From Antedon bifida (lineage: Eukaryota > Echinodermata > Crinoidea > Comatulida > Antedonidae): a DNA stretch of 64,000 nt. This document shows, one piece after another, positions 15,217 through 54,600 of this stretch. Position 1 is the stretch's first letter, and every line of letters begins with the position of its first letter. Both the position numbers and the translations under genes were made by a program. The notes under the pieces were generated by a model, which did not search any database, was not told the DNA's origin, and saw nothing but the letters and a program-made list of their open reading frames with translations. Location of the stretch: contig OY727093.1 of NCBI GenBank assembly GCA_963402885.1, forward strand, positions 27,217,409 through 27,281,408, written 5' to 3'.

Positions 15217-15248
15217 ATGGCATCTAATTTTGAAAACCCGGAAGAAAG
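15217..15248 (+). CDS. Copy B first coding exon
   Basis: ATG in a strong context (aaccATGg), encoding MASNFENPEE plus two bases (AG), then gtaata. The two leftover bases fit the phase of every symmetric microexon and of the DED exon at 32279. It is conserved in copy C as MASNYRKPSR. Confidence 0.7.
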
Positions 15249-18200
15249 GTAATACTATTTGTATCTTATAATAATAGTAGAAATAAATAATAAGTCTTCA
15301 CAAGCTGTATCTCAATTATTGCTTCAAAATGTCATTTTTCCACTATAATGAATCAAAAGTAAAATTACTATACATGTAGTAGCCTAGGTGACAACAAATA
15401 ATTAAAACAAATTTAACAAACAGTAGCCCTTCTATTCAATAAAGGTACGGCTTACTACTGAATACCAATTTTACAAGTAGCTATTCTGAACATAATTTTA
15501 TTAATTTACTTCATTAATTATATGTATGACGTACAATACGCTACTGTAATACATATTTATTTCAATACTATTTATTAGGATGGTCCTTCCAGCCGAAACA
15601 TTTTAATCATATTACTACTATTGCACATTTTCAAACGTTCATTATAATAGTAAATTACTAGATTTATCTTTATGACATGACTAGTGTTATTATTTATTGC
15701 AAGGTCTGATATTTTGTGTAACAAAGCATCCAAAATAAAAATGCATATAACCCTCACTATTACGTCTATGTCACACTTTGCTTAACTCATCCCTTGTATA
15801 TTATAATACTTCTTTTTAAACGATTTAAATTTTGTTTAAATTAAAATAACTTGCCACACATATTTTGTAGTCACACTGCTTATAGGTCAGGAAATGTCTA
15901 TTCAATTGTATACATACTGCATTAATTTAGATTGTGATATTTATATACCACTAGCAGTTATCAGTCCACTGGACGGGCACCATCTTATAATTATTTTAAG
16001 ATTCGGGAATCAAAGATAGTACAGTAATATTATAGTAATACAGTATACACAGTAAATGGATGTATAGCGCACAGCATTATACTGTATTCGTCTTTATATT
16101 TCAGTGTCTATTTTCATTTAATTCTAAAATCCAGCAATTTTAAATGGACATTTGCAGAGTCATCGAAAATAATAATAATGCTCACTGTAAAATAAATGTT
16201 TGAAAAAAAATGCAGTCACAAAAAAACAGAATCTCGTTAATATTAATGTTTAATATACATCTGTATCTTTGTTCTTGTTTTTTTTTTTTTTTTTTGTGTA
16301 AATATATTAAAATAATAGACGTTTATTACCGTAATTAATATTATTATGTCAGTTATTATTATTATTATTATTATAAGTTTGGTATAGGACATAGTGCTGC
16401 ATTTCATAGTCATATGGTAAATGTTAATGTTTTGTAAAAGCTTACAAAGTATGTTTTGCCATTTCCGACTGGCGAATTATATGTACTGCGTTAATTTAGA
16501 TTGTGTTATTTATATACCATAATATACCATAAAATAATAATGAAACTTATATATTTTTTACAGTGCCTCCTCAGACGATTCAAGGTAAGTATAAAACTTA
16601 AATCAGTAAAATTAATAATCAAATCATAATGTGTCAGTAGCATGTACTAAATAGTAAATGTGCTACTGTAAATTAGTATACAGTGTATGTTATGACCAAG
16701 GCAAAGCATCCAAAATCAAAATGCATTTAAACATTAATCCCTCACTATTATTTTGTTTAACTCATCCCTTGTATGTAATATTTCTTTTAAACGAATTAAA
16801 TTTTATTTAAATTAAAATTACTTGACACACACATTTTGTAAACACACTGTTTATAGGTCAGGAATGTCTATTGAATTATATGGACTGCGTTAATTTAGAT
16901 TGTGATATTTAGCCTATAATATCAAAAAAAGAAAACTATTTAGAGAATAATTGAGACTCTTTTTGTGACAAGTTTCTCTTTCGGATGTATTTTCCAGGGT
17001 GCTAATCCTGTATATATAATATTTCTTTTAAACAGTTTAAATTTTGTTTAAATTAAAATGACTTGACACACACATTGTAGACACACTGCTTATATATTAC
17101 ATTATATCTGCGTTAATTTAGATTTTGCTATTTAGCCTAGGCCTATATACCATAATACCATAACATAATGATGAAACTTTAAATACGAAAACCCGGAAAA
17201 AATGTAATTATATCTGTATCTTATAATAATAGAAATAAACAATAAGTTGGCACAAATTGTATCTCAATATTGCTTAAAAACGTTATTTGTTTTAATTCAT
17301 TTTTCTACTAATGAATCAAAAATAAAATGGCAATACATGTAGTAGGTGACAACAAAATAATTAAAATTGAATTTAAATAAACAAATTTAACAAACTGTAG
17401 TAGCCCTTCTATTCAATAAAGGTACGGCTTACTACGAATACCAATTTAACAAACAGTAGCCCTTCTATTCAATAAAGGTACGGCTTACTACGAATACCAA
17501 TTTAACAAACAGTAGCCCTTCTATTCAATAAAGGTACGGCTTACTACTGAATACTAATTTCACATACAGCAGTAGCTATTCTGAACATTGTATTAATTCA
17601 CTTCATTAATGACGTACGTACGGTACGCTACTGTAATACATTTATTTCAATACTATTTTATTAGGATGGTCCATCCAACCAAAACATTTTAAGCATATAT
17701 TGCTATACTATTGCACATTTTCAAACGTTCATTATAATAGTAAATGACTAGATTTATCTTGATGACATGACTAATATTATTATTTATTGCAAGGTCTGAT
17801 ATTTTGTTTAACTAATAGAAAACAATTTATATACAAATAAATAGCATCAAACATTATGATGAATTCTAACGACATTTAGAGACAATGAACTGATTTTCAA
17901 TAAATAATAGAGCAAGAAATGTAAATAATTAATACAGCACTATTCATAACATTTATGTAAACATAATGAAACTTATATATTCTTTTTTTTTACAGTGAAT
18001 TATACAGTCGTGTGTAAGTATAAACTTAAATCAGTAAAATTAATAATAAAATCATGTGTCAGTATCATGTACTATTAGTATGGTACTGTAAAGTAGTACA
18101 GTACAATGAAATATAAGATGATGAATAAACTTGCATGTTATGACCAAGACAAAGCATCCAAAATCAAAATGCATATGAACCTTAATCCCTCACTATTGTC

Positions 18201-21200
18201 ACACATTTCTGAACTCATCCCTTGTATATTATATAATATTTCTTTTAAACGATTTAAATTGTGTTTAAATTAAAATGAATTGACACACACATTTTGTAGA
18301 CACACTGTTTATAGGTCAGGAATGTCTATTGAATTATATGTACTGCGTTAATTTAGATTGTGATATTTATAAAAAAAAAATATTTTTAATAATTAAGAAT
18401 TATTTTGTGACAAGTTTCTCTTTCGGATGTATTTTCCAGGGTGCTATTCTATTTGACTACATCAATCACCGTGTTTGTATGTACTCATATATCCTTTAAA
18501 AATTGTGAACTTTATCATTTAACAATTGAAAGTAAATACAAGTAGTAGACCTGTAATGAAATATAAATTCATGAATGGATTTGTATTATTATTATAGTCA
18601 ACACGAAGAAAAACAAAATTCCATGTACTTTCAAATAATTGTAATTGTGAAATAAAAACAAAACATACTATTAAATGTTACTGTCTGTACTATTTTAGAA
18701 AAATCTCCAAATTGTGAATTAATTTAATATAAAAAGGCTAAATAGAACGAACGATGGGCATCAGCCATATTCTGCAAATTTTGCTTATGAATCGATCGTT
18801 AAACCCGTTTCTTGGAATATAGCATGCACTCCTTCATTTAATGATAACTGTGTACATAGCATTATTGTTAAACATTCGTAACAGCTTCCATAATTTCGAA
18901 TCGACTTGAATTATTTTGTTCATGCCATTATTCAACACTCACAAGACAAAAGCCGTTCAAAACAATGTGATTATTGACGATATAGTTTTCACTTTTTAAA
19001 AATTAAAAAGGTGTTTAATCAAATCGGTATTCCGACACTGTCAAAAGACACGTTTAGTGAAGCTTCAGCAGTTAACCCCACCACCACCTAAATTGTCCTC
19101 ATCATCAAAAAAAAATTTAAAAAAAGAAACAGACTTTTGTTTTCAAGCATTGCCCGTGATGGTGAATACAAAGAGAGATACAGTACTCTCCTTTATTAAG
19201 TGATGGTAAATTTGTATCGGGCCTAACCTTCTATCTCCCAGGCTTGTGATGAGACGACTATTCAAGTCTCCCAATTTTCAACAGATTATCGATCGACGTC
19301 CCACTTCTAAATAAATCACTTTTCAGTCTGGAGTACGCCCTCTGGCCTTCGGCTTATACAAACTCTCTCTGCTTTCATTCGACTACTACACTATCTTTGA
19401 TTCGACCACAGAAGAACTTATAACAACTGTTATATTATATTAAGTTCTTTGATTCGATCATTCGACACATACCCCCTATACTATACTCTCCGTAGGAACC
19501 AAATATACTATAGCGCCATGTGGGGCTATACAGTACGATCGATCTTTGGTAGGAACGTTTCCCTGCTGGTGGAGGTAGGAGGACCTAGGCCTAGCATTTT
19601 TGGCCGGTTGGAATTTGATGTTTATTTTAATGTTTTAATTACATCTGAGCAATATAAATAATCGCGGATTGTAAATGTTTCAAAGAATACACAATTAAAA
19701 GTTTATCGAAACTAGGCCTATTTTATATTCATTTTGTCTATCTATTAGGCTAGCTTATAGATACAGTAGGCCTAAATAGCCTAAGGGCCTCCTAGCCTAC
19801 CCTGGGCCTAGAGGCTAGGTAGGCCTTCCTTAGGCCCTAGAACTAGCCTAGTCAGTAATAATAGGTCTTTAAGCCCTAGTACCCTTGATATCTAGAAACT
19901 AAGCCTAGGCCTAGACTAGGCATCATCCCAATTGTAAAATAAATTCATAAATTATTTAATATTATCTGTTTAAATCATAAAAATCAAGGATACAACAAGT
20001 AGTATTATAAATGAAATATAATTACAGTATGTAAAACATACTAAGATTCTTATAAGAGTGAGTATAAACTTTGTTGCTTACTAAAAATATAATATTTATT
20101 TGAAAGAAATTAAAAGTACAAGTAGTATTATAATAAAATATAAATTCTTTAATGGACTTAATATTATTATTATTATGTCAAAGCATAACCAAATCAAATT
20201 TAGACTTCCTACACTTCAAGAATTGTGTATTGAATTTCATGTACGTTATTAATAATTTAAATCTCTCAAATAATTATGATAATTTTAAAATACATTCACA
20301 TAGATTGTTTTTCATATTATGTAAACACAAAATATTTATAAAAGAAATGATTGAATGTACAGCATTTAGGAATAAAGAATGGTTACAACAAAGCATAACA
20401 AACATCAACATTGCATTTACACATACTTCCTACACATTATTTGAATAGAAAATCAATCTTACAACTTGTGAATGTCTTTTTGAATATTTTAGATAATTGT
20501 CCAATTTGTAAAATAAGTTAATACAGTACTATAGTAGCATGTACCTATAACATGTATAGGTCCATGATAGTAATACAAAACAGGTACAGGTACTGTAACT
20601 TGTTAAAACATAAGATAATCAAAATGCTTTTGAACTTTAACTTGCTATTGCAAATGTAATAACAAAATCAAGTTTAAACTAACTATAATATAATATGTTA
20701 AAACAATGACAGTAAATAGCAATCTGGTTGTCAATAAATAACAGAGCTGGTAATTTAAACAATGCATTTTAATATTCAGACATTATTTATGTAAATTTAC
20801 TAATGAATCTTAATACTTTACAGTGAACTGTTAGATAAAGTATAAATTGTCTAATTGTTTAATAAAATGTGAAACAAAATATAAAATACAACTATTATAA
20901 TGAATTGTAAATTTAAAAAATATTATTATGGTCAGGACAAAGCATAACAAATCAGGATTGCATTTAGACACTACTTTACACTACACTAAGGAAATGTGTA
21001 TTGAATTAATCTACTGTATCAGTTTGAATATTTTTTTAAATTAAAAAATAAAGTTATTTTAATAGATTTATGCTTTGAAAATTATTGTTTGAATGGTACT
21101 GAAACTTATTAAATCAAAGGAAAATCAAATGGTTTTCAGTCTATCTGACTCACTATTGTCAAAATAAATTGTGTATTTAAGTTTATGTGAACTGTATTAA

Positions 21201-24200
21201 TTTGAGTCTTTCAAATGTCATAATTGAAAAAATAAATGAATCATTATTTTAACAAAAGATATTTAAAAAAATGATACTACAACTTTTTCTCTGTTAATTT
21301 ATGTATTTGAAATAATTGTATAAATTACAAATTGAGTTAAAGAATAGATTTTGTCCAAACAAACACAATATTTTGTTTAATATTGTTACTATAAAACTTG
21401 TTAAATACCCCTTTTTCAGCTTATGATGACACACTATTGCCAAAATAATAAAAAGATTGAACTTATTATGATACGTTGTGGTTAAAGATATGGTATCTGT
21501 AGAGTTCGTAATTTCTAAAAACTATAGAGCGCCACCAACGGAATCAATCGCAAATATGATACAAACAAACAGGACAAACTTGGTTGAGAAAAACAAAATA
21601 TAACTTTAATCCTAATAGTGCTCACTGTAAAATGAATGTTTGAAAAAACATGCAGTCACAAAAAAACAGAATCTCGTTAATATTAATGTTTAATATACAT
21701 CTGTATCTTTGTTGTTGTTTTGTTTGTGTAAATATATTAAAATAATAGACGTTTAATAATTAATATTATTATGTCAGTTATTATTATTATAAGTTTAATA
21801 AGTTACATAATACTGCATTTCATAGTCGTCTGGTAAATTGTCATGTTTTGTAAAAGCTTCCAAAGTATGTTTTGCCATTTCCGACTTGCGAAATATATGT
21901 ACTGCGTTAATTTAGATTGTGTTATTTATATACCATAATATACTATAAAATAATAATGAAACTTATATATTTTTTACAGTGCCTCCTCAGACAATTTAAG
22001 GTAAGTATAAAACTTAAATCAGTAAAATTAATAATCAAATCATAATGTGTCAGTAGCATGTACTAAATAGTAAATGTGCTACTGTAAATTAGTATACAGT
22101 GTATGTTATGACCAAGGCAAAGCATCCAAAATCAAAATGCATTTAAACATTAATCCCTCACTATTATTTTGTTTAACTCATCCCTTGTATATAATATTTC
22201 TTTTAAACGAATTAAATTTTATTTAAATTAAAATTACTTTACACACATTTTGTAGACACACTGTTTATAAGGTCAGGAAATGTCTATTGAATTATATGTA
22301 CTGCGTTAATCTAGATTGTGATATGTGATGTGATAAACCAAATAGGAAAAAAAGATCCTCATATATTTGAGGAACTAAATCAAAAGGGTTTTATATTTGC
22401 ACATTTAAATATACGTAGCCTAGACTTACATTTTGATGAATTGCAACGTATTCTAAATAACAACAATTTCAATGTTTTTGGCTTAAGCGAAACATTTCTA
22501 GATAATACATTTATTGATGAAGATTTTCATGTTGACAATTATATATTACACAGACTAGATAGACGTAAAACTAAAAAAGGTGGAGGTGTAGCACTCTATT
22601 CTATTTGACTACATCAATCACCGTGTTTGTATTTACCCGTTCCGTGTGGTTCATATATCCTTTAAAAATTGTGAAATTTATCATTTAACAATTGAAAGTA
22701 AATACAAGTAGTAGACCTGTAATGAAATATAAATTCATGAATGGATTTGTATTATTATTATAGTCAACAAGAAGAAAAACAAAATTCCATGTACTTTCAA
22801 ATAATTGTAATTGTGAAATAAGTTCTTCATGCATTATTATTTTAACAAACAAAACATACTATTAAATGTTACTGTCTGTACTATTTTAGAAAATTCTCCA
22901 AATTGTGAATTAATTTAATATAAAAAGGCTAAATAGAACGAACGATGGGCATCAGCCATATTCTGCAAATTTTGCTTATAAATCGATCGTTAATCCATTT
23001 CTTAGGATATAGCATCTGCCTAATTTAATGATAACTGTGTGCATAGCATTATTGTTAAACATTCGTAGCAGCTTCCATAATTCCGAATCAACTTGAATTA
23101 TTTTGTTCATGCCATTATTCAACATGTAAATTTACTAATGAATCTTAATATTTTTTTTACAGCAAATGGGTTAAGTAAGTATAAACTTTAATTGTCTAAT
23201 TATAATAATAAATGATAAATGAAGACTTATATAGCGCCGGTATCCTCCACCCATGTGGCGCTCATGGCGCTTTGTGCATTAACAACGTGCGAGAACATCA
23301 GCGAATAGCGACGTCTTTAGGTTGGTCTTGAAACTGTTTAGACTAGTTGAGCATTTAACTGTTGCTGGTAAGCTGTTCCATACACTTGCGGCCGCGACGT
23401 AAAAAGATCTCTGACCCCACTGATTTTTCGCTCTACGCTCTTGAAGAAGGTTTTGTGACAATGATCGTAGGCCTATGCGGGATGATTCGTAACGATCCAC
23501 AAGGTCGGATAAATAAGCAGGAGCACTGTCATTTAGGATCTTGAATACAAACAACGCAAATTTGTACTTAATACGTTGTTGAACAGGCAACCAATGCAAA
23601 TCCATCAGGACAGGAGTTATGTGAGCGTTTGATTTTGTATAAGTTACAATTCTAGCTGCCATATTTTGCAAGCGCTGCAAACGTTGTATTTGAGATTTTG
23701 GTATGCCAAACAACAAGGCATTACCAATGTCAATTTTAGAAGTGACAAATGAGTGTACAATCAATTCAGCTGTTTTCTTGTTAAGATTACCGCGAATACG
23801 ACCAAGGTTCCTAATCGATATGCATGCTGCTTTGGATACAGTTGTTATTTGTGCTTCCATAGTGAGATTACTATCCAGCATGATTCCCAGATTCCGGACC
23901 ACCGATGAGGGAGCGATGTTAGAGTTTCCGATTCTGATATGTGTGATGTTGATTTTGGAGATGTTACATTTAGACCCGACGATAATAAACTCTGTCTTTC
24001 CATCATTCAACTTTAGGTAATTTGTTGTCATCCAATTGCGAACATCTTCTATACAGGCTTCCATCTTACTGATTGCTGCAGCAACATCCCTTTGCACTGG
24101 ATTTACTGACACATAAATCTGTGTATCATCTGCATAGAAATGGAAATGTAGACTGTGTTTGCGAATAATGTCACCAAGGGGAAGCGTATAAATGGAAAAC

Positions 24201-27200
24201 TGGCCAGGCCCAATTACTGACCCCTGTGGTACACCATATTCCAGGCAAGCTTCATCTGAGAATGCATCATTGATACAGACTAGCTGACGTCTTCCTGTAA
24301 GATATGACTGGAACCAGTTAAGAGCAACACCATTTATGCCAATGCGATTTCTCAGACGGGTTATCAGTCTTTGGTGATCAACTGTATCAAACGCTGCTGA
24401 CAAATCCAACAACACCAATAGCGTTATTTTCCCATCATTCATTCCTTGTAACAAATCATTCTGTACCTTTAAAAGGGAACTCTCCGTGCTATGACATGCA
24501 CGATATGCCGACTGGTAATTCTCATTTAAATTATGCTTTTGAAGATATGGAGTAATGCGTGATGTCACTACACGCTCCAGAGTCTTTCCAAGAAAAGAAA
24601 GATTCGACACCGGGCGGTAATTTTTCAGCGTGTTATGATCCAAGTTTTGCTTTTTTTATTAAAGGACGAACGTGAGCAATTTTCAGTTCATCTGGCACTA
24701 TGCCGGTATTAAGAGAATGGTTAATGATTTCCGTTATTATTGGAACGACTGCATCTATACACTTCTTCAGTATAGAAGTAGGAACTGGATCTAACCTGCA
24801 TGATTTTGTTGGTGATTTCATCAGAATGTTGCGGATCTCATCTTGAGATGCTGGTGTAAATGTTGTGAGATGCTGATGAACAGCTGTCACAGGCTCATTA
24901 AATGACATGTCATCAATCTTGAAGTCGTCTCTGATGATCTTGATCTTGTCTGTGAAAAACTGACAGAACCTGTTCGCAAGATCTAAGTCAGAATGACTAT
25001 CTGGGAGAGGTGATACCTGGCGATGATGAAGGAGTTGGTTAACAACTTTAAAAAGTCCTTTCTGATCTGCTGCATGTTCTTCACACAAGCCAATGTAGTA
25101 GTTGGCCTTTGCCTTTCTTACCATGGAATTTACATTCCTCTTCTGTGCAATGTAAGCTTGACGATCTATTTCCAGATGAGAGATTCTCCATTTCTTTTCA
25201 AGCTTACGCTTTGTTCTTTTCTCAGCATAGATGTCACTGTTATAGCGCATGGGCGCTGCAACATTCATTATACTAATTATTTACTAAATTAAAAATGCAA
25301 AATGCATTACAAGCAATTGAAAGTAAAAGTAGTATAATGAAATAAATGAATGAATCGACTTGCAAATTATAGTTAAAACAAAGCATTTAATAAAAATAAA
25401 ATTTCATTTAGACACTTTCTATAACTCAGGAAGTGTGTATTGAATTGCATGTACTGTATTAATCTTTCAAATAATTATAATTGTAAAAATAAATTCATAA
25501 TTCATAATTTAAAAAAAAAATATACAAAAACAAAAGTTATACTACAACTTTTTACTGTTTTATTTTGGGTATTTGGAATAATTGACTGTATACATTACAA
25601 AGTGAATTAATATATAGATTTTTGTCTCAATAAAAAAATTTTTTTTTTTAAATTGCTATTATACATTTTTAAATTATAAGAGAATCAAATGATTTTAGCA
25701 TAGTGAAAGAAAAAAAGACAATAAATAGCAGTCTAGTTGTCAATAAATAATAGAGCAGGTAATTAAACAATGCAAAGCTATTCATACATTATTTATGTAA
25801 ACAACCTAATGAGTATTATTACTTCTAACAGAGAATACAGCTACAGTAAGTATTACCTTAATATTTAATTGTTAGTTAGATAAAGTGTTAAAAGTGACAA
25901 AGCATTTACAAATCAAAATTCTTGAAAATTATTGTTAACAGAGTGAAATTAAATTGTATTTTCACTGTTCCCTTTGGTTAAATTAAAACAAAGCATACCA
26001 AAATCAAAATTGCATTTAGACATTTCCTACACCTCAGGAATTGTGTATTGAATTTCATCATTCAAATAATTTTAATAATTGTAACACTAAATTCATAATT
26101 ATTATTTCAACAAAAAAATGTTTACAAATTATAGTACAACTTTTTGACTGTGTTATTTTGGGTATTTAAATTACTGTAGTTGTGTAAATTACAAAATGAG
26201 GTTAGACAAAGCATAACAAAACGAACAATTTAATTTAGACACTTCCTACCTACACATCGGTAAAAAAAATATTGTACATCATTTTACTGTATTAATTACG
26301 ATATTTTAAACAATTGTCTAGATTACAAAAATAGTTAATATAGGCCTATTGTAAAATCACAATTAAACTTGCTTGGTTAAAATAAATGAGTAAAATTTAA
26401 ATTATAGATTGTTATAAAACTAACTCCAAATAACGAGAGGCAAGCCATGATTCAACATTTCAATCTTTATTTGATAATCATCAGATATCATCGTGATGAT
26501 GATCAAATAAATATAGAAACATTGAATCATGATGATTATTATTATTTAAACAACAAATATGTACAAGGAAATGATTTTACAAAATTTTACTGTGTTAACA
26601 TATTTTAAACAATTTTCTAGATTATAAAAAAGTTAAAATAGACCTAATATTTTCAAGAACAAACAAAATAGTTTATAGATTTATTGCTAAAACTTTTTTA
26701 AATTGTAAGAGAATATCAAATGTTAAACCTATATTATGACTCACTATTGAAAAAATAAGAAATCAAGATTAAACTTGCTATTACAAAAATTTAGTAAAAT
26801 AAAACAAATGCAATACATAGCAGTCTGATTGTCAATGGATAATAGAGCAGGTAATGAAAACAATGCAAAACTATTCATACATTATTTATGTAAACATACT
26901 AATGAATATTAATACTTCAGGAAAAGGAAAGACTGGCAGAGTAAGTATCAGCTTAATATCTAATTGTTAGATAAAGCATGGAGTAATTATTACTCCATGA
27001 TAAAGTGTGAAATGTATTACATAACACTTAGCACAATGAATGGCCAATTATGATTAGCACAAAGCATGAACAAAATTTCATTTATACAGTTTTAATAATT
27101 TAAATCTATCAAATAACTATAATTGTAAAATACCTTCATAGATTGTTATTATTTAAGCGAAATATATTTACAAAGAAATGATTTTACAGCATTTTACTGT

Positions 27201-30200
27201 GTTATGATATTTTAGGCCTAATATTTGTCTAAACAAACGAAATATTTGTAAAGATTTATACTAAAACTCTTTTAACTTTTTTTTATTCTCTTTATTAAAC
27301 TTGCTATTACAAAAATTTAGTAAAATAAAACAAATGCAATACACAGCAGTCTGATTCTGTCAATAGATAATAAGAGCAGGTAATGAAAACAATGCAAAAC
27401 TATTCATACATTATTTATGTAAGCATACTAATGAATATAAATACTACTTTACAGACAGAGAGAGTATAACCTTAATATAATTATGATTAGATAAAGTGTG
27501 AAATTTATTATGTGTAACACTAACACTTAAAATTGCAAGTAATAATTAAAGGCCTTATGGTTACCACAAAGCATAACAAAATCAAAATTGCATTTACACA
27601 TACTTTATGCACCCCAGGAATTGTGGGTGAAATTTCATGTTCTGTATTATATTAAATCTTTCAAACAATTATACTAATTGTAAAATAAGTTCATAGATTA
27701 ATAATTAAACAATAACAAAATTATTTAAAATATTTATTTACAAAAAAAATAAATCTTACAACTTTTGACTGTATTTTTGGATCTTTTAGCTAATTGTCCA
27801 AATTGTAAAATAAGTTTACTATATTATATGTATTATTTAAAAGTTCAATGTAAAGCAGTATGATGAAATATAAATTGAATGATGAATAACTTCAATATTA
27901 TTACTATTACTGTTTCCTTTAGACACTTCCTACACCTGTGAAATTTATTACAACAAGATTGAAATCTATTATAATTAAAGTAAACTGAATGGACTTTATC
28001 CACTTATTAAAGCAAAACAGAATCAAAATTGCATTTAGACACATTCTACACCCCAGAAGGTGTGTATTGAATGTCATGTACTGTATTAATTTGAATCTTT
28101 CAAATAGTTATAAAAAAAATTCATAAGTTATTATTTAAACAAAAATATTTATTTACCCCAAAAAAGGATACAACTTTTTACTCTATTTATTTGGTTATTT
28201 TAAATTATTGTCTAAATTACAAAATAAGTTAATATAATAGATCTTTGTTTATATATATATTGTTATTATATTCAGAATCAAAATAAATATTATTACTGTT
28301 AATTATAACTTTTTAAATGATAAGAATATCAAGATATTTTAGACTAAATGACCTGCTATTGCAAAATAGTAACAAAAATAAAGATTAAACTTACTATAAT
28401 TAGCAGTATGGTTGTTAATTATATAGAGCAAGTAATTGAAACAATGCATAACTATTCAATCAGACATTATTCATGTAAACATACTAAAGAATTAATACTT
28501 TTTGTAAAGAAAAAACATAAACTTTATCTAATTATTTACTAAAATGTGAAATATATTCCAAAATACAATTGAGAGTACAAGTAACATTATGAAATATAAA
28601 CTCATGAGTGTACTAGCATATTACTGTATGGTCAAAGTGGCAAATACTTCCTACTTTCATAGGCAATTTTTTTTAAAATTTGGATATTTTATTAGATATT
28701 TCTTCAAAATATAAAATAATTTGTATTGTATATTTTAAATTTCTTTAAATTTAAATAAGTTTATACATTATCATTTAAGCCACAAATAATATGTATACTA
28801 CAAAAATGGTAGTCCTAGTCTACTACAACTTTTCTTATATTTCAAATACAGTAATTGTCCAAATTGTAAAATCAATTAATATTATAGATTTGTCTTTAAA
28901 CACATTTTCCTAAAACTTGTTTTAAATACAATTTTCAGCCTTAATATTTTAGTTTTTGGAAATAATTACAAAATGTATATTGTATGCAGTGTCAGAAAAT
29001 ATTTTATTATATATCACTTCAAAGTACAGTAGTGTAATGTAATGTGCATAATGAATGAACTAATACAAACCAAAGCATACATAAAGTAAACAATTATTAA
29101 AAATAACCAAGAACAATATTTATATTTTAAATATAATATAAAATAATTAACTGACGGTGGCCATCATAGATTTGTTTGAAATCAGGTGAACACCGACAGC
29201 CGAATGGAGTTGTTGAGTTGCTGGCAGGTTTGAACATGTTGCACGGTATCCTCAGATGTACCACTGGGACCCGAGATGCATTTATCACAAATATCGTTGT
29301 GAGAACGTTTGCTTCAAAATCCTTCCCACCATGCTTTGCGCACACTATTTGAGATAAATCTTATTGGCCCATGTTGCAAGACGTTAAAATGCCTTGCTGA
29401 ATGTCATTGTGTGGTGTTTGTTGATGTTTTAAACTAAATACTGTATTTATTATACCAAGCCTACCACATTTATTTGAATAAACATTTTAAATCTGCACCT
29501 TCTAATATACACCCCACCACATATATTTATACACACAATATTGTATAATAACACAAACACAATTCTATTTGTATAAGAATTCAGTGACTGCTATATCTTC
29601 AATTTACCAAGCATTTTGATAAAATTGTTTACAGAATTTATCACTTTTTGATTAATTATAGTCTTGTATTTCTTCATATCTAGGGGAATTTATTTTACTA
29701 TGAAATTTTACCATATTACAAACAAACGCCTCCCTCAAACTCCCCACCCCCGAACAATAAACATGGTACTTTAAAATGATGTATTCTTCATCTTATTTAG
29801 TCTAGAAAAGACACTGACAAACAGATTATGTTTATTTTTACGAATAGCAATTAGCATTTCAATAATTATATGGTATAACCAGGGTTTTTAACCGAGTCAT
29901 TATTTAACATACCGAGATCCATCGTCTACACACTTACTAGAGAGTGAGTGAGCAAAGGGAGCTCACCCTCTAGTCTTTCAAATAATTTTAATAATAAATT
30001 CATAATTATTATTTCAACAAACATAAAAATGTTGAAAAAATATTATACTATACTACATTTTACTGTGCTATTTTGGGTATTTGAAATAATTTTATGAACT
30101 ACAAAATGAATTAATATAATAGATTTTTGTCAGACAAACAAAATATTTATTTTAAAATAAAATGACAATACATAGCAATCTGGTTGTCATTAAATAATAG

Positions 30201-33200
30201 GGCAGGTCATGTAAACAATGCAGGCATTCTTTATGTAAACATACTAATGAATCTTAATACTTTTTTACAGAGAAAGGAGAAGAGAAAGAGAGTAAGTATA
30301 AACTTGAACTATCTATTGTTAACTAAAGTGTGACATTTATTACAAAACAATTGATTTCGCGAGAAAATTTGCTTCCAAATACTTCCCACAATGCTTCGCG
30401 CACACTATTTGCGATAAACCTTACAAGATTTAAACTAAAACTTTATTTATTATACCAATTAAGCCTACCGCATTTATTTGAATAAACATTATTTTAAATC
30501 TGCACTTTCTAATACATACATACTAATGAAGCTTATATCTTGTTTACAGAGACACCTCAGACAAGTAAATATAAACAATTAAAAGGTTAATAATTAAAAT
30601 AAGATGATGAATAAACTTGCATGTTATGACCAAGACAAATCATTAACAAAATGCATTTAGACCTTAGTGCCTCACTATTACGTCTCTGTCACCGTTTGTC
30701 ACAACTCATCCCTTGCATATGTAGAATTTTTGTAATACGAATTTGCTTAAATGAAAATTACTTTAAAGATGCAACACATAACTTTTGTATACAGTAATAA
30801 TAATTATATAATGAGTAAGAGAAGAAAATAACAATACACAAACCATCTGGTTATCAATAAATAATAGAGCAGATAATTTAAACAATGCAGAATTATTAAT
30901 TACGTACTAATGAATCTATAATACTTTTTATTTTACAGAAAACGGCTAAAAATGTAATATATTTCAAAGCAATTAAAAGAACAAGTAGTATAATGAAATA
31001 TAAATTCATGAGTAGACTTATATATTATTATTGTGAAGACAAAACAAAACCAAATAAAAATTGCATTTAGACACTGTCTTACACCTCAAGAATGTATGTA
31101 TTAAAATTCATTGATATTGGTATTCCCCGCCATATCGTTAAGAAGAACTAATAATTAAAAACTGCGTGTACTGTATTAATTTGAATCATTGTATAATATT
31201 AATAATAAATACATAAATTATCATTTATACAAAAAATATTTGCAAAAAAAATTATACTATAACTGTGTTAATTTGGTTAAAATTGTAGGCCTATAAATTA
31301 AAACAATAAGTTAATATAATAGATTTTTGTCACATTTTTTTAAAGATTCATACTATACGTTTTTAAATCATAATAAAATCAAGAGCGTTCAGCATAAATA
31401 ACTCACTATTGCCAACATAACAAGAACAAATATTAAACGTTAATAATATAATATAATAATGTTTCCTTTAGACACTTTCTACATCTGTGAATTTTATTAC
31501 AACAAACTATTATATAACAGAATCAAAATTGCATTTCCTACTCCTCAGGAATTATGTATTGAATCTTTCAAATACTTATGAAATATATTCATAAGCTATT
31601 ATTTAAACAAAAATATTCATTTACCCCAAAAAGTGATAAAACTTTTTACTCTATTTACTTATTTTAAATTACAAAATAGAGTTAATATAATAGATCTTTT
31701 TTTATATATTTTGTTATAATTATTACTATAACTGTTTAAATCGAGAGATTTTAGCCTGAATGACTCACTATTGCAAAAATATTAACAAAATAAAAGATTA
31801 AACTTACTATAATGCGAGTGAAAAAAGTAACAATAAATAACATTCTGGTCGTCAATAAATAGAGAAGATAGTTTAACAATGCAGAACTATTCAGACATCA
31901 TTTATGTAAATATACTATTTTTAACAATATTTGAAAAATGATACTATAACTGTGTGCTGATTTGGTTATTTGAAATAATTGTATAAATTTCAAAAATATA
32001 ATAGATTATTGTCCAAACATATTTTTTTTAGATTGTTGCTATAGTGCTTAAATCATATCATATAATGTAATGTGCATAATGAATGTGCAAATTAATACAT
32101 TTAAGACCAAACCATAACATAAAGTAAACAATTTTGTTAAAAATACGCATTAAGAACAATATTTATATTTCAAATATATAAAATAATTTAAAACTGAAAG
32201 CAATAGTATTTTTAATATTGTTTTTAGTTGAAAATAAAATTGAATATTTACACATTACCTTATCTCTTTTATGAGCAGGGATGAGTTTTTGCAAGTGATA
32301 GATGAACTTTCAAGTGGAATTGAAGTGAATGATCTGCAGATGCTGAAGGTCGCCCTCTATGACATAATCAGCAATAAACAGGCATTAGAAGCAGCATCAG
32401 CTAATAGTTTGTTTAGACTATTACATTCAGAAGGTCACATTGAAATTAGTTGGCTGTTGGTTAATTGTGATCTGTTATTTGAATTATTTGAAATAACAGG
32501 ACTTCAAAGACTACCTCAAATATTATCCAAGAACTATCGTAGATGGAATCAGCTAAACAAAATCACAGGTTACAGACGAATGCTAGTTAAACTTGGCAAA
32601 TCATTAAATACTCAACAAGTTGAAATCCTTGCGAAGCTTTGTAATATTGAAAAGAGTGATTCTGAAAATGTGTGGAATTTTATTAGCAGATTGACTCAAG
32701 GCAACATTGAAGACACTATAGAATCTTTGACGACATTTGAAGCGCTTCTGAAGGACCAACAAGATTTGAATCATGTACTTACTATTGTGAGATCATTTGG
32801 TAAGTACGGGTAGTACAGTATGTCATTTGTACCATCATTGTTTGTTTTGAGCAGAATCACATGTCTTATTGTGTGACCGGTTTCAGTCAAAATATTATCT
32901 TTATTTTGTTTATTGAATATTTAAAAAATATAAAGTAATTACCATGAGCCATAAGAGTATACAATGTATACAATTGCATATAGCTAATTGGCTCTACACT
33001 ACAAGTTCAATGCTGGTGATATTTAATTGTTATAGTAGACCATCAAATATAATATTTTTTATTTTTTTTATTTTTCAGTGCAACAGAAGAAACTGAATGA
33101 TGGTGAGTGAACAATTGGTTATGAAATAGTAGTAAATGTTTATATTGAATAAGAAATGGAAAGAAATAGGTCCTAAGTGGGGTTTAATGTTTATAATTGT

Positions 33201-36200
33201 TTTAATTGTTTTTAATTATCGATTTGATTGCTATTTAGTATAATATTTTTTTTGTTTGGCCAATAATATTACTAAGCGAAACATGTTCTCTTTCTCTCAA
33301 AATAGCCAGGTAAGATATTTTTGTTATAATGAACAATAAGTAATTTATCATCACGGACAGATAATGCAGTACTTAATTAAACTATATTTGTGTATTCTGA
33401 CTGTATTTTATGTTCTGCTTTACTAACAGTGATCGCATTACATCAAACTCTCTGCCTTAGACTTTTACCTCTCAAAATCTAAAACAAAAAATCTCATACC
33501 TATAATTCGGTAATAAATGTGTGTTTTCATTATTTGTGTCTTTAAAGTTCCTCTTGAGGTGTTGGCAAGAGGTCAGGAGGCTAATGATGCATTTCTTGAT
33601 GCCATACAAGAAGGCAGCAAACCTATATACCAAACACGTCTAATGCTTGTAGGACAAGAACGTGTTGGGAAAACAAGTCTAACCAAAGCATTCACTGGAC
33701 AACCGTAAGTAGGCTAATCATTCTGTGCTTTTATGAGTTCGAGGCAATTAAAACGTCAATTTTATAAAATCCAATACAAATACAACTGATACATTATTGC
33801 GCAGTACAATTTAAAATAACACTGTATACTTAATATTTGTGTACAGACAGAAAATTATAAATGTATGTAATCTATATATATACATTTACGTAAGGGCAAA
33901 ATTTGATAAATCGCGCGTTACTTCTAGAATGTTTACTCGATGGTATATACTGTAAAGTTGGTTCGTACTTTCGGTACTGATTTTAACCACCTGATGTAAC
34001 CCGGTTTACTAATTAAATTGAGTTAGATAATTAATTATTGACAATTAAAACGAATTTAGATTCAACGATTTGCCACAAATTCTGATTGTGGTATACACTG
34101 TCTAATGGATGTCCATCTTGAAAAATACGAGGATTCTTCGCATTTACCTTATCTACGATAATTGTTTTTAATAGCTGAAAACCGGTTGAACAGCTCGAGT
34201 ACAGCATCTGAATTTTGAAGATTTTCTTTAAAAAATACTATTTTGATAGATTTAATATATGTTTATACATATGTATTGATTTGCGATGAATGGAACATTC
34301 TCTCAGTCTCAGTATAATTATTTGGTTTAACTCAAGTAGGTAAATTTATGGGCCCTTGCAGATAAATTGAAACCTTCAGATATAGTATTGCAATACTTTG
34401 ACAATACTGTAAATACATATTAACCATTTTTGGTCGCCATTTGAATCGCAAATTTCTTACTGTGAGTGTGGGTAGGCCCTACTGTTAGATATATAAACAC
34501 ATATACAAATAAACTTTATTACTGACAGTTGCTTCTCAACGTTTTCATTAATTAATAATTACAAAAAATATAAACGTTACATGACAATTTTAAAAAAAGT
34601 ATTAAATCACAAATGTTTTTCTGTATTTAGTGGTATATTATTTATAGGCCCATAAAACATGGAAACATATTTCATTACTGAGTGGATGAAGAATATATTT
34701 GAAAATTGTTCCTCTTTGCATCCCTCTTCTTCCCCATCTCTCAACCCTAATGTTATATGAGTTCAAATCAAAAATTTGGACTCATTTTGTGACAAGTTTC
34801 TCTTTTGGAAGTAATTTCCCGGGTGCTAATTTTAGTTTACTACATAAATCATCATGTCTATTTATTCATTTCTGTAAACTACAATGTATTATAGCCCTGC
34901 AGTACGTACATTTAAAAAAACTGTTTCTTTACACTGAAGTTACTGTGTAACCATCTGTGGGCACGACCTAGATGGTACTCGAGCGAAGCGAGTCTACTAT
35001 AATTTACTAAAACCTGTATAATATAAAATATTATTCTTTGAGTGATTTTCATTGTTACATATTGTTGATTGTTGTATAACATTTGTTTAAGGTGTGATAA
35101 CATACAGTACTTCCAACATTTATTTAGATTCAATGTTACTGAGGAAGTGACTGATGGAATTGAAGCATCATTGTCATGTACAATTAGTGTTAAGCATACT
35201 ACTAACTGGAAACCAAATCAAAATAAAGGTATATTATACTGTACTTTTATATTTTTCATAAACATTAAATTACAAAATACAATTTGAAGATTCAAAAATT
35301 TAAATGTACCGGTAATAATTAAGTGAAACAATTTTTTATTTTTTAATTGTTTATTTTAAACATATATTTACAGGATAATAATTAAGGTGCAATACTAGGC
35401 ATCTTGTTATAATATAAAAAAAATAATCTTTAAAAAAAAATCAAAGAGAGAGACTAAACTACAGCAAAATAAATTTAAATATAAAAATTGAAAAAAATGC
35501 TTCTTTTATAATATTTTAGAAATGTGCTGTTAAATTTGTACAGCTATTGTATTTTTGAAGTCTGTATAATAGAAGAACTAGAGCATAATCTCTGCGTTTG
35601 TCAAAATAAATTCAAAATTGTTAATTCTTAAAGCAAATGTTGTTCAAAGCTTTAACAAATATTAAAACAAAATCCAAAATGGATGCTTTGGATGTCAGAT
35701 CGCCTGGTAGGCCTTTATTATGCAATTTTCCACTCAACAACCCAAAAAGCAATTTTTTAAATACATGCCAGATATGAACAAATCTGCTGTTTGAATCCTT
35801 AAATGTCATCAGTTTGGTAATTTGTTAATTTATCACATACGGATACCATTTTATAGACTACATGACAAATCAGTGTTTTACGTCAATTTATGGGTGCCAG
35901 ATTTAGGGTAAAAGAATGCCAGATATTAGTAAATTATGCCAGATTTGTTAGCATCACATGGCAGGTGCCAGAAGGGTCACAGCTATGTGAGAAAACATAA
36001 TTACGACAGATTTGGTCACATTGCTTGCTGCACGCTTTTGTAATCGACTTTATAGAACAAATGAACTTTCCAGCTATGGTTATCATCACTTAGGTTACTG
36101 ATGTTTATTATTTCTAAAGATTCATTTCCCACCTGAATATTAGAGATTGGAAAGGTGTGTATACGTAAATAGCTAAATTCATGGTGACAAATGTATGCAA

Positions 36201-39200
36201 AGATTAAACCTTGCATTACTTTGTACTATTTACAGAAATGAATAAAGCAAGACAAGAATATGTAAATGCTCTTGCAGAAAACATTGTAACAGATATTTTG
36301 CAGGATAAAAAAGAGAAACAAAATGAGGTTAGAACAATATGATTAAGATGATCACAACTATACATTTAAACAATACTTTTGAATCAATATGTTATTGTCA
36401 TTTATTATGTCATTGTTTGCAATATACAGAGGTTAAGAGAAGATGACAAGAAAAAACAAGAAAATAAAGTGAGTGGCACTATTGCTGAACCAGAAGAAGC
36501 AAGTCCAATAAATTCCTCACACAAAGGTATGCAATCTCTTTTATGGGCCTTACCATGTTTTAAGGTACATCTCTTATTCAGTAGTGTGAGTTGATTGATA
36601 TCACCACACATTCACTGTGGTAGGTAGAATTGCAATACAGATTTTGTCAATTTGTTTTAATGTTTATAATATAATGTGCATAATCTTCATCATATCTCAA
36701 GTATGTCTATTGTGTTTAATGTCCTGCAAAATAGGGGTTTGGCTGTAGTGTTAAAGCATTATTTTCACTCCTTTCTTTAATGGGAAAAGTGTCCCCTTAA
36801 TAGGGATGTTCCCTGATTATGTGTGTCCAAAATAAGTTTACCTGTAGTTAAAAATAATGAGTGCCCACATTCAACAACTTATTTATAAACATTTAAATGT
36901 CTCCATTTCTGTTTTTCTGTTCGATAGAGAAAAAAGGTGAAACATTGATTGAAAGAGTCATAAGAGCTGTTCGGGAAAAATTCATGACGGTTTTGCCGAT
37001 GGAAAGAAAAAAAGAAAAACATCAGGTTCAAAATTCTGAATAATATATAATTTTTACAAACCTTTAACAAAAGAAGAAAAAAGGATACCAGGTGGTGGAA
37101 ATCTAAAATGTACCTAATACAGTTACAAACATTTGACCATTGCCTCCTCCACCATTTGCTTTGGTTTATTTAGTGTGTACATAATAAATGACTTCCATAA
37201 TTTTTAAAGTTTCAGTTTAAATCGTTTATGTTGTGTTTTTAGAGAGAACAATTAATATTAAATCTGTGGTATCAGTATTACAATTATGTGGCAACTTTCT
37301 TTAAACAAAATTGTTTGCAGCAACATGTTAATCACTTTAGAACATAGGCCTACATCATGCTTTGCAACACTTTATATTATACAATGTATTAAATAAATGT
37401 ATTTTTGATTTGATTTTTATTACATATTAAATGAAGAACCCTAGTGCTTAACTATCCTTGATCTGTCACTTAATCTAATATTTCAATCAATTTCATTTTG
37501 TAATTATTTATTTTTCTTATTGAATTCCCATTTGCTTTTTTACTGTATCTTTACTGTATTTTGATTTTGATTATACAGAAATCAAGAGAAGTTGGAAGAA
37601 ATATAGAGGAACATGAAGAATTTGGTAAAGTTGAATGGAATTTTACATCTATTTTAATAGAGTAGTTACACAATAATTATATCAAGGTTAAGTCATTTAA
37701 TGTATGTAAGTACACATGAATAGGATATAGGTATAGTGTATGTATATTTTAATTTAGCATATGCATGCCATTCATTATCCACAAGCTGAAAAGTTTTATG
37801 GTGTGTATAAAATATAATTATTAGGAAAGACATTACATTACAAGTATTCCATTATGAATATTGTTTAATTACAAATTTAGCATCTTCACATGTCAACCAT
37901 GCTACACCGATGACACCGGATGTTCAAGATGCGGTTCAAGACGAGGTTATGGAACGCCTTATAAACATCCTTAAAGAAAAGGAAAAGCATGAACAGAATA
38001 CAATGTTAGAAAAGAGTGAAGAGTTACAAGAGACAATTGATGATCTGACTCTCAGCATCTGGGATTTTGCTGGACAAGATCTTTATTACATTACTCACCA
38101 GGTAGTCGCGGTCATATAGGCTGTATATGTATTTCTTCAAATTATTAGCCCTCATTTATTTATTCATTTTTTTAATTTCAGAGATTCAACTGACAGGAAT
38201 TCAAAATTAGGACAACTTTATTCATTCATTGTGCAAAATAAATTTAAAATGCCAGTGCAGGCCTAGTTATTCCTAATGCTGATTTTATATAGTGCATGTG
38301 ATATATTGCCATCCATTAAAACTCAGTAGTTCCTTAAAATTTGAAATATTGAATTGAATATATATAAATCCAAAGGCAAATTACTGAAAAAAATGACAAT
38401 GCTGTGGGTATCAGTGGCTGGATCTCAATGGAGATACAAAAAAAAAAAGCGAAAAGCTAAATCAAAACGATAAAGTAAACAGCCAGAAAAGTTAGCAGAG
38501 CTTTCGGGCAACACTAGCCCTTCATCAGTGCAAGTGATGAGTTAATCTTGCTATATAAACTTTATTTAGACACGAGACTGATGTGCAGTACAACTTGTTC
38601 AATCAATATTGATTGTTTTTACACAAGTTCGTGATATTACAAAAAAACCAACACCATATAAATATGACAAAAAAGATAGAAAAAATTGCAATTGAACACA
38701 ATGAATATTAAGGCAGGCTAAATTCCTATTTATACAAAAATAAAATTTATATAAAATATCCATGTCTATAAACTGAACTGGTTCAAATATCTGATCAGAA
38801 AAAGCTAATTCACTTATGTTTTTTTTCATGTAATTGTTTAAATTTTTTTTTTCTTAATCAAGTTAAGAATATGTGAAAGTATTGCTTATTTAGTAATTAT
38901 ATTAAGTTGATTTTTTTTTTTATAGATGTTCTTGGTATCCCGTGCTATTTACATCATCTGTTTCAACCTCTGTCATGACCTCAATGCACCATCTAGAGTA
39001 GAGATTTTTCATAGAGATAATGGGAAGGTAGGTACAGATATTTCAAACAATAATTTGAAGTAATAGTTTATTTCAAACAATAATTTGAAGTAATAGTTTG
39101 ATTTTATATACAGTGGTGGCGCCAGCGGGGGGCCGGGGGGGGGGCCCCCCGTCGGGGAAAGTTGTCGGGGAGAAAAATATGATCATTTCTTTTCTGGTAA

Positions 39201-51595: not shown

Positions 51596-51627
51596 ATGGC
51601 ATCTAACTATAGAAAACCGAGCAGAAG
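51596..51627 (+). CDS. Copy C first coding exon
   Basis: ATG in a strong context (aaccATGg), MASNYRKPSR plus AG, then gtaata. Same length and phase as copy B. Four of the ten residues match exactly at the start (MASN). Confidence 0.68.
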
Positions 51628-51685: not shown

Positions 51686-54600
51686 TTAATAATAATAGAA
51701 ATAAACAATAAGTTTGCACAAGTTGTATCTCTCAATATTGCTTAAAATGTTTTTTTATTCATTTTTCCACTATAATGAATCAATAGTAAAATTGCAATAC
51801 ATGTGGTAGCCTAGGTGACAACAAATAATTAAAATTGAATTTAAATAAACAAATTTCACAAACAGTAGCCCTTCTATTCAATAGAGGTACGGCTTACTAC
51901 TGAATACCAATTTCACAAACAGTAGCTTTTCTGAACATTGTATTAATTCACTTCATTAATGACGTACGTACGGTACGCTACTGTAATACATTTATTTATT
52001 TCAATACTATTTATTAGGATGGTCCATCAAGCCGAAACATTTTAAGCATATTGCTACACTATTGCACATTTTCAAACGTTCATTATAATAGTAACTTACT
52101 AGATTTATCTTGATGACATGACTAGTGTTATTATTTATTGCAAGGTCTGATATTTTGTTTAACTAACAGAAAACAATTTATATACAAATAAATAGCATCA
52201 AACATTATGATGAATTCTACCGACATTTAGAGACAATGAACTGATTTTCAATAAATAATAGAGCAAGAAAATGTAAATAATTAATACAGCACTATTCATA
52301 AATTATATACATAAACATAATGATGAAACTTATATATTCTTTTTTTACAGTTTAACAGACAAAGAAATGTAAGTATAAACTTAAATCAGTAAAATTATTA
52401 ATATAATCATAATGTGTCAGTATCATGTACTATTATGGTACTGTAAAGTAGTACAGTACAATTAAGTACTTTTAATTTAGTTTTAGCAATATATACGTAC
52501 GGTACGCTACTGTAATATATATTTATTTCAATACTACTTTATTAGGATGGTCCATCCAGCCGAAACATTTTAAGCATATTGCTACACTATTGCACATTTT
52601 CAAACGTTCATTATAATTGTAAATTACTAGATTTATCTTTATGACATGACTAGTGTTATTATTTACTACAATGTCTGATATGTCGTTTAACTAACAGAAA
52701 ACAATTTATATACAAATAAATAGCATCAAACATATAGGCCTATGATGAATTCTACCGACATTTAGAGACAATGAACTGATTTTCAATAAATAATAGAGCA
52801 AGAAAATGTAATTAATTAATACAGCACTATTCATAACATTTATGTAAACATAATGAAACTTATATATTCTTTTTTACAGTTACGAATACAAGATTCCGTA
52901 AGTATAAACTTAAATCAGTAAAATTATTAATATAATCATAATGTGTCAGTATCATGTACTATTAGTATGGTGCTGTAAAGTAGTACAGTACAATGAAATA
53001 TAAGATGATGAATAAACTTGCATGTTATGACCAAGACAAAGCATCCAAAATCAAAATGCATTTAAACCTTAATCCCTCACTATTACGTCTATGTCACACT
53101 TTGCTTAACTCATCCCTTGTATATATAATAATAATCATAATGTGTCAGTAGCATGTACTAAATAGTAAATGTGCTACTGTAAATTAGTATACAGTGTATG
53201 TTATGACCAAGGCAAAGCATCCAAAATCAAAATGCATTTAAACATTAATCCCTCACTATTATTTTGTTTAACTCATCCCTTGTATATAATATTTCTTTTA
53301 AACGAATTAAATTTTATTTAAATTAAAATTACTTGACACACACATTTTGTAAACACACTGTTTATAGGTCAGGAATGTCGTTAATTTAGATTGTCATATT
53401 TAGCCTATAATATCAAAAAAAGAAAACTATTTAGAGAATAATTGAGACTCATTTTGTGACAAGTTTTTCTTTCGGATGTATTTTCCAGGGTGCTAATCCT
53501 GTATATATAATATTTCTTTTAAACAATTTAAATTTTGTTTAAATTAAAATGACTTGACACACACATTTTGTAGACACACTGCTTATATGTCATGACTTGT
53601 CTATTACATTATATCTGCGTTAATTTAGATTTTGCTATTTAGCCTAGGCCTATATACCATAATACCATAACATAATAATGAAACTTTAAATACGAAAACC
53701 CGGAAAAAATGTAATTATATCTGTATCTTATAATAATAGATATAAACAATAAGTTGGCACAAATTGTATCTCAATATTGCTTAAAAACGTTATTTTTTAA
53801 AATTCATTTTTTTAACTAATGAATCAAAAATAAAATGGCAATACATGTAGTAGCCTAGGTGACAACAAAATAATTAAAATTGAATTTAAATAAACAAATT
53901 TAACAAACAGTAGCCCTTCTATTCAATAAAGGTACGGCTTACTACTGAATACCAATTTCACAAACAGTAGCTTTTCTGAACATTGTATTAATTCACTTCA
54001 TTAATGACGTACGTACGGTACGCTACTGTAATACATTTATTTATTTCAATACTATTTATTAGGATGGTCCATCCAGCCGAAACATTTTAAGCATATTGCT
54101 ACACTATTGCACATTTTTCAAACGTTCATTATAATAGTAAATTACTAGATTTATCTTGATGACATGACTAGTGTTATTATTTATTACAAGGTATTTTGTT
54201 TAGGACTACTTAACAGAAAACAATTTATATAAAAATAAATAGCATCAAACATTATGATGAATTCTACCGACATTTAGAGACAATGAACTGATTTTCAATA
54301 AATAATAGAGCAAGAAATGTAAATAATTAATACAGCACTATTCATACATTATTTATGTAAACATAATGAAACTTATATATTCTTTTTTACAGTGTCTCAA
54401 GGGAAGCAATGTAAGTATAAACTTAAATCAGTAAAATTATTAATATAATCATAATGTGTCAGTATCATGTACTATTAGTATGGTACTGTAAAGTAGTACA
54501 GTACAATGAAATATAAGATGATGAATAAACTTGCATGTTATGACTAAGGCATAGCATCCAAAATCAAAATGCATATGAACCTTAATCCCTTACTATTGTC

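Follow-up and report, generated by a model that had tools for sequence, protein, structure and literature searches.

A predicted array of symmetric microexons with class-specific hypervariability ahead of the death effector domain exon in a cluster of Antedon bifida Roc GTPase genes

Runs of very short symmetric exons located between longer introns and giving highly variable products are described for the micro-exon genes (MEGs) of schistosomes, for which variation by alternative splicing has been proposed (excerpts of PMC5825161 and PMC10526429), and in flukes MEGs give rise to proteins that are secreted or anchored in the membrane and that consist mostly of microexon-encoded sequence (excerpt of PMC5825161). 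Brown-algal ROCO genes contain tandem phase-2 exons of 72 bp, each encoding a leucine-rich repeat (LRR), with diversifying selection and alternative splicing (excerpt of PMC11378527). Here we describe a microexon array found in 64,000 nucleotides of the crinoid Antedon bifida (the whole stretch analysed, hereafter the window, equal to C1:27217409-27281408 of the host genome, where C1 and similar symbols stand for contigs). The array is located between the first exon and the death effector domain (DED) exon of genes predicted to encode a Roc GTPase with a Death domain, represented in the window by copies A, B and C. Positions given without a contig refer to the window, and features lie on its plus strand unless stated otherwise. 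No microexon array in a death-fold GTPase was found among the literature matches listed.

Both MEGs and the Antedon array are made of short symmetric exons, but in the latter they encode nothing beyond the linker at the N-terminus of a Roc/Death protein, which is probably intracellular. Symmetric exons of 6-36 bp account for about 80% of the coding region in a MEG, a share not approached in copy B, where the intact microexons add up to 132 nucleotides (nt) and the DED exon by itself already has 521 nt. A ROCO gene (here a probable one), tandem phase-2 exons and diversifying selection (here likewise probable) are common to the brown-algal and the present case, which differ in exon size (72 bp there, 9-24 nt here) and in product, LRRs there and a linker preceding the DED here; exons of 72 bp each encoding one LRR are not what the array consists of, and no LRR was present among the Pfam matches of the proteins scanned. 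The initial annotation of this DNA had drawn a parallel to arthropod Dscam-hv, in which mutually exclusive exon choice shapes the extracellular region and a role in immunity is discussed (excerpt of PMC3364881). Arrays of variant exons within one gene are indeed found in both, but Dscam-hv rests on mutual exclusion, of which the present array shows no sign, and the analogy is a loose one, MEGs and brown-algal ROCO arrays being closer. Exons of the Dscam-hv clusters are of ordinary size. Radical changes of short exon segments are reported in snake venom genes under the name of accelerated segment switch in exons to alter targeting (ASSET; excerpt of PMC2711939); there the segments lie inside exons of venom proteins, whereas the units that change here are entire microexons in the gene of a signalling protein. 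Positive selection on an N-terminal linker is reported for the inflammasome protein NLRP1 (excerpt of PMC5142783). This analogy is limited to the position of the linker. We know of no microexon array in NLRP1.

Splice signals, exon phase, cluster specificity, class-specific hypervariability and a codon signature can be seen in the DNA itself, and as far as DNA allows they establish a coding, frame-neutral array. In copy B, exon 1 (15217-15248, 32 nt) starts with the ATG at 15217 and encodes MASNFENPEE plus two nucleotides, ending in phase 2 at 15248, and the DED exon (32279-32799, 521 nt) starts in phase 2. Exon 1 of seven cluster copies, B and C included, has ATGGCATCTAA.. in common and a donor after 32 nt, and so does that of a relative on contig C16. 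The approximately 17 kb from exon 1 to the DED exon hold eleven candidate microexons, each flanked by an AG acceptor and a GT donor, in the following order: B1 (class T1b, near the flank rate; SASSDDS, 21 nt, 16564-16584), B2 (hypervariable class T1; SELYSR, 18 nt, 17996-18013), B3 (16 nt, 20824-20839), B4 (T1b; SASSDNL, 21 nt, 21980-22000), B5 (hypervariable class T2; SKWV, 12 nt, 23163-23174), B6 (14 nt, 25832-25845), B7 (20 nt, 26921-26940), B8 (9 nt, weaker donor GTATAA, 27455-27463), B9 (T3; RERRRER, 21 nt, 30271-30291), B10 (T4; RDTSD, 15 nt, 30550-30564) and B11 (T5; RKRLK, 15 nt, 30939-30953). Eight of them (B1, B2, B4, B5, B8 to B11) have a length divisible by three (3n) and phase 2-2. 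The remaining three break the frame: B3, probably decayed, reaches to a shifted GTATAA donor and is matched in other copies by relatives 15 or 16 nt long, B6 has the acceptor AACAG and the donor GTAAGT, and B7 is a relative of class T3 with a shortened pyrimidine tract, identical across three copies. A twelfth unit (approximately 28498-28512), one of four near-identical cluster copies, is decayed and no recognisable exon was found in it. At least nine microexons between a phase-2 exon 1 and a phase-2 DED exon had been noted in the initial annotation, which the eleven candidates bear out, and its more general claim is supported, namely that a death-fold Roc GTPase gene has tandemly duplicated coding microexons of symmetric phase before its DED exon; that nearly all of them are 3n applies to eight out of eleven, three being frame-breaking.

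Exons of classes T1 and T2 differ by 44-51% and their flanks by 3-9%. Pairwise diversity of T1 (18 nt), calculated for eleven of its twelve copies with the 21-nt relative at contig position 27496377 left out, was 0.44 for the exon, as compared to a mean of 0.086 and a maximum of 0.257 in 633 flank windows of equal length, where the flank divergence depends on the method (0.086 with MAFFT, 0.033 with gapped pairwise alignment). For T2 (12 nt) the sliding comparison used those six of the ten copies which have close flanks, and gave an exon diversity of 0.51 versus 0.048 in the flanks, with a maximum of 0.326 over 675 windows. Neither class shows any variation in the 12 columns following the exon, and of the 12 columns preceding it two are variable in T1 and three in T2, which we attribute to alignment of the T-tract. 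When only pairs of equal length were compared, the closest T1 pairs among the matches listed combined 2.6% flank divergence with 9 differences in 18 exon positions, 2.8% with 11 and 2.8% with 3. The pattern is not uniform, as one pair among those listed has no exon differences at 5.9% flank divergence. In a pairwise comparison with internal controls, limited to flank divergence of at most 12% (which kept 55 of 55 T1 pairs and all 28 T2 pairs in a close set of eight), the decayed C6 units, the type represented by C6 in copy C, showed 6 exon differences in 315 sites at 3.4% in the flanks. The statement of the initial annotation that the exons vary more than their introns holds for T1 and T2 only, decayed units and several other classes being at or near the intron rate.

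Among the 22 distinct T1 and T2 exons (10 and 12, respectively) there is no stop codon in the frame predicted from exon 1, as against 3 and 16 in the other two frames. The ratio of nonsynonymous to synonymous differences per site (pN/pS, Nei-Gojobori) in the predicted frame equals 1.91 for T1 and 1.75 for T2; out of frame it is 0.63 and 1.29 for T1, 0.34 and 0.96 for T2. Third codon positions are the slowest in T1/T2, and a result as extreme was obtained in 51 of 20000 permutations, which were stratified (40 of 20000 once the end columns had been dropped).

Splice sites were scanned by a strict rule, requiring at least 8 pyrimidines in 10, [CT]AG, 6-33 nt and then GTAAGT. In the copy B intron this gave 5 pairs on the plus strand and none on the minus strand, versus a mean of 0.13 and a maximum of 2 in 300 dinucleotide shuffles, while a loose scan gave 31 and 24 pairs on the respective strands (mean 12.1, maximum 29 in 100 shuffles). 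Scoring of the sites against shuffled intron, by which the initial annotation was to be judged, is thus in its favour with the strict scan and not above noise with the loose one; because loose scoring hardly beats the minus strand, we relied on the strict scan and homology. In 340 kb of cluster sequence (C1 27120001-27410000, 27440001-27460000, 27490001-27500000 and 27560001-27580000, window included) the strict scan found 52 pairs on the plus strand, of which 48 are 3n and a few fall outside the exon 1-DED arrays, and 3 on the minus strand. The signature TTTTTACAG-N9-18-GTAAGTATAA has 28 matches in the whole 315.6-Mb genome, 27 of them within 0.5 Mb (C1:27.13-27.63 Mb) together with the clustered DED gene copies and one in the related gene on contig C16; genome-wide, no reversed match and no match in the backwards control was obtained, and all 28 enclosed exons have 12, 15 or 18 nt. 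The donor-side motif, with up to two mismatches allowed, has 13 cluster matches on the plus strand and one elsewhere on the minus strand (backwards control, 1). On the grounds of these genome-wide searches, with 28 signature matches against none in the controls and the donor-motif result, an origin from a dispersed repeat or by chance was rejected.

The DED exon itself (genome search with E up to 0.001, 150 of 322 candidates scored) has at least 88 matches in the genome. At least 14 near-full copies, 68-100% identical, are situated on one strand at C1:27.15-27.66 Mb; the other DED exon matches listed are one of 70% on C16, one of 45% on C8 and two partial ones. We also noticed at least 70 further DED-like matches of 21-34% identity, many of them clustered, on contigs C15, C7, C8, C16, C10 and C12. 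DED-like genes form a large expansion in this genome. Three of the four spans compared roughly preserve one order within arrays, namely acidic or Ser-containing T1, four-codon T2, charged T3, then T4 and T5; the fourth, 74 kb long, probably covers more than one array. In the gene at contig position 27182087 the filtered scan gave eight microexons, all 3n. The C16 relative has retained exon 1 as well as four 12-nt microexons and one of 21 nt; the four 12-nt exons show only two differences, both synonymous, at a pairwise flank identity of 75-89%. Compared with T1/T2, this suggests that exons of one and the same architecture diversify in one place and are under purifying selection elsewhere, with the exon boundaries delimiting both effects.

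As to the protein, the joined copy B translations contain a Roc GTPase domain (Pfam Roc, E 2.6e-12, 47.5 bits versus a cut-off of 27), with its first part in the P-loop frame (GQERVGKTS, 33547-33705, exon ends estimated) and the later part (WDFAGQ) in the open frame at 37811-38116. A COR domain following Roc is represented only by a weak, below cut-off COR-B match in the open frame at 43050-43379 (E 0.011, 16 bits versus 27), and a Death domain is present in the open frame at 44709-45116 (E 5.4e-5, 23.7 bits, above the cut-off of 22.6). The tandem DEDs proposed initially are half supported, since the first one matches Pfam DED at E 3.1e-6 (27.8 bits, under the curated cut-off of 35.9), and the second half of the exon alone gave a partial DED match of E 0.045 in copy B and no Pfam DED match in copy A. 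In a PDB profile search with the DED exon, the DED protein PEA-15 came up only at E 0.39 or worse, ranking behind annexin and polymerase matches (E 0.024-0.33). Among eight copies of the DED exon the ratio of nonsynonymous to synonymous rates (dN/dS) is 0.40-0.73 in 25 of 28 pairs (full range 0.24-1.15). A loop of the first DED, residues around 54-62 (about 32436-32462), varies strongly in sequence and length among the eight copies, with conserved surroundings. The DED exon is followed by a 24-nt exon, TGCAACAGAAGAAACTGAATGATG (33079-33102), conserved and symmetric (phase 1-1) in copies A and B and in a homologue at C1:27316357.

We consider it probable that these genes carry a germline-diversified microexon array, in which duplicated phase-2 symmetric cassettes are spliced into the linker and those of T1 and T2 are diversified by selection. 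In the region bounded by exon 1 and the DED exon, symmetric phase-2 microexons of 9-24 nt would have been multiplied by tandem duplication, and their splicing would produce a short and predominantly charged linker immediately before the DED. T1 and T2 would undergo diversifying selection at the protein level, with their introns kept alike by recent duplication or gene conversion; T1b, T4, T5 and C5 would change near the intron rate, T3 would be constrained and decayed units would drift. With arrays diversified in this manner each gene copy would carry a different linker, most likely serving as a rapidly changing segment through which a switch of innate immunity or cell death makes contacts, is modified or is cleaved; an immune role is suggested by the DED, Roc and Death domains, the gene cluster and the diversification. 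Transcription, actual splicing and skipping or combinatorial use we infer. The coding signature makes it very likely that the microexons are spliced in. At least some cassettes are likely to be skipped, because the array persists although units in it decay and because the copy B frame is lost under full inclusion. This frame is lost when the 16-, 14- and 20-nt units are all included, or the 14- and 20-nt units without the 16-nt one, and kept when the 16-nt unit is joined by either of the other two alone; the frame-breaking units give a weak hint of skipping, though some look decayed.

Several points weigh against this interpretation. Inclusion of the microexons is predicted from genomic sequence, and a spliced retrocopy with one exon 1-microexon junction, searched for with up to three mismatches, was not found. 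A tandem exon duplication can survive only if it is frame-neutral, and so frame neutrality by itself does not argue for combinatorial choice. Nei-Gojobori counts on exons of 12-18 nt are crude and the copies are related; with 8 instead of 12 distinct T2 exons pN/pS falls to 1.51. In T1/T2 pS is 0.22-0.26, exceeding flank divergence, so that a raised rate of mutation or segment replacement may contribute. The decayed B7 (0 of 60, flanks 0.3%) and the intact C5 (0 of 45, flanks 0.8%, exon/flank ratio 0) say little as controls, their flanks being nearly free of differences. Hypervariability does not extend to other intact classes: the exon/flank ratio is 1.9 in T1b (6 of 126, flanks 2.6%), 2.7 in T5 (4 of 45, flanks 3.3%) and about 1 in T4 (4 of 60, flanks 6.3%, four of ten pairs kept after the 12% flank cut). 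T3 (21 nt), with pN/pS of 0.76, is under net constraint, and the C16 array is nearly uniform.

How the cassettes are used can be seen in two ways. Intact microexons may always be included, the charged linker simply lengthening by exon duplication with no combinatorial splicing, a serious possibility that we place below an even chance. Frame neutrality would then be automatic in the surviving duplicated symmetric exons, the eight listed microexons of the 27182087 gene, all 3n, could be included in full, and the four near-identical 12-nt exons of the C16 copy look repeat-like; what speaks against constant inclusion is that the 16-, 14- and 20-nt units of copy B, despite their AG/GT sites, break the frame (all three together, or the last two), and that several units inside the arrays are decayed. 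Independent or regulated skipping, giving many linker variants per gene copy, comes near an even chance in our estimation. It agrees with symmetric exons all of one phase and with the frame-breaking units of copy B, and it has precedents in schistosome MEGs (excerpt of PMC5825161) and brown-algal ROCO exons (excerpt of PMC11378527), but the splice sites look strong and not weak, as would also be expected under constitutive inclusion. More tentatively, and short of an even chance, we suggest a combinatorial system at the microexon scale for an intracellular death-fold GTPase, where many of about 14 clustered gene copies would have an array of frame-neutral cassettes of their own, and two cassette classes, hypervariable in the germline, would be splice-shuffled into a receptor- or bait-like linker setting the trigger or partner of each DED-Roc-Death switch.

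The diversity itself might be mutational in origin, arising by wholesale replacement of exon segments through a local mechanism, as in the ASSET of snake venom genes. T1 exons which, among the matches listed, differ at 3-11 of 18 sites at a flank divergence of 2.6-4.1% would fit such replacement, as would pS above the flank rate; still, the diversity follows the splice sites, third codon positions are the slowest, and neither the decayed C6 units nor the other intact classes are hypervariable, which makes this origin unlikely. That there are no exons at all, just chance splice-like sites within a dispersed or satellite-like repeat, could be argued from the tandem duplication of the units in AT-rich sequence and from the failure of loose scoring to separate them from noise. 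Confinement of the strict signature to these genes on one strand, with all enclosed exons 3n, coding periodicity without stops and the synonymous-only change at C16 largely refute this possibility, and we regard it as highly improbable.

If germline diversification of the array is true, animals can focus diversifying selection on cassettes of 4-6 codons kept as separate exons, and an internal signalling protein can gain variable segments with its folded domains undisturbed. Microexons of related origin adjoin each other in intact, conserved and decayed states, a natural experiment in which selection, mutation and splicing can be told apart. Gene finders easily overlook exons of this size, hence similar arrays may have escaped notice in immune clusters of other invertebrates.

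Copies A, at the left edge of the window, and C, from 51596, have the same design as copy B. Copy A shows two T3 microexons of 21 nt (323-343 and 902-922) and the DED exon (1252-1769). Copy C starts with exon 1 (MASNYRKPSR, 51596-51627), followed by three T1 microexons of 18 nt, C1 (SLTDKE, 52351-52368), C2 (SYEYKI, 52880-52897) and C3 (SVSREA, 54393-54410), then C4 (T2, SKRF, 12 nt, 57866-57877), C5 (15 nt, donor GTAAAG, 59298-59312), C6 (a decayed T4 unit with its donor lost, 60719-60733), C7 (T4, 15 nt, 62846-62860) and C8 (T5, 15 nt, 63304-63318). Decayed copies of the exon 1 end and the intron start were recognised by eye at about 17185-17205 and 53690-53710, which suggests that the duplicated units once included exon 1.

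Mobile elements were noticed as well. Between B5 and B6 the copy B intron contains, on the minus strand at 23279-25280, open frames resembling a non-LTR retrotransposon (LTR, long terminal repeat), with a reverse transcriptase match (Pfam RVT_1, E 1.6e-29), and LTR-retroelement-like open frames are found on the minus strand (L015 5948-9786), some 3 kb downstream from the DED exon of copy C. In the mitochondrial contig C27 of the host (15844 bases), a COX1 stretch has four AAA codons, and all of them are aligned to Asn of the best mammalian chain, as would be expected from the echinoderm and flatworm code; AGA and AGG codons are indecisive.

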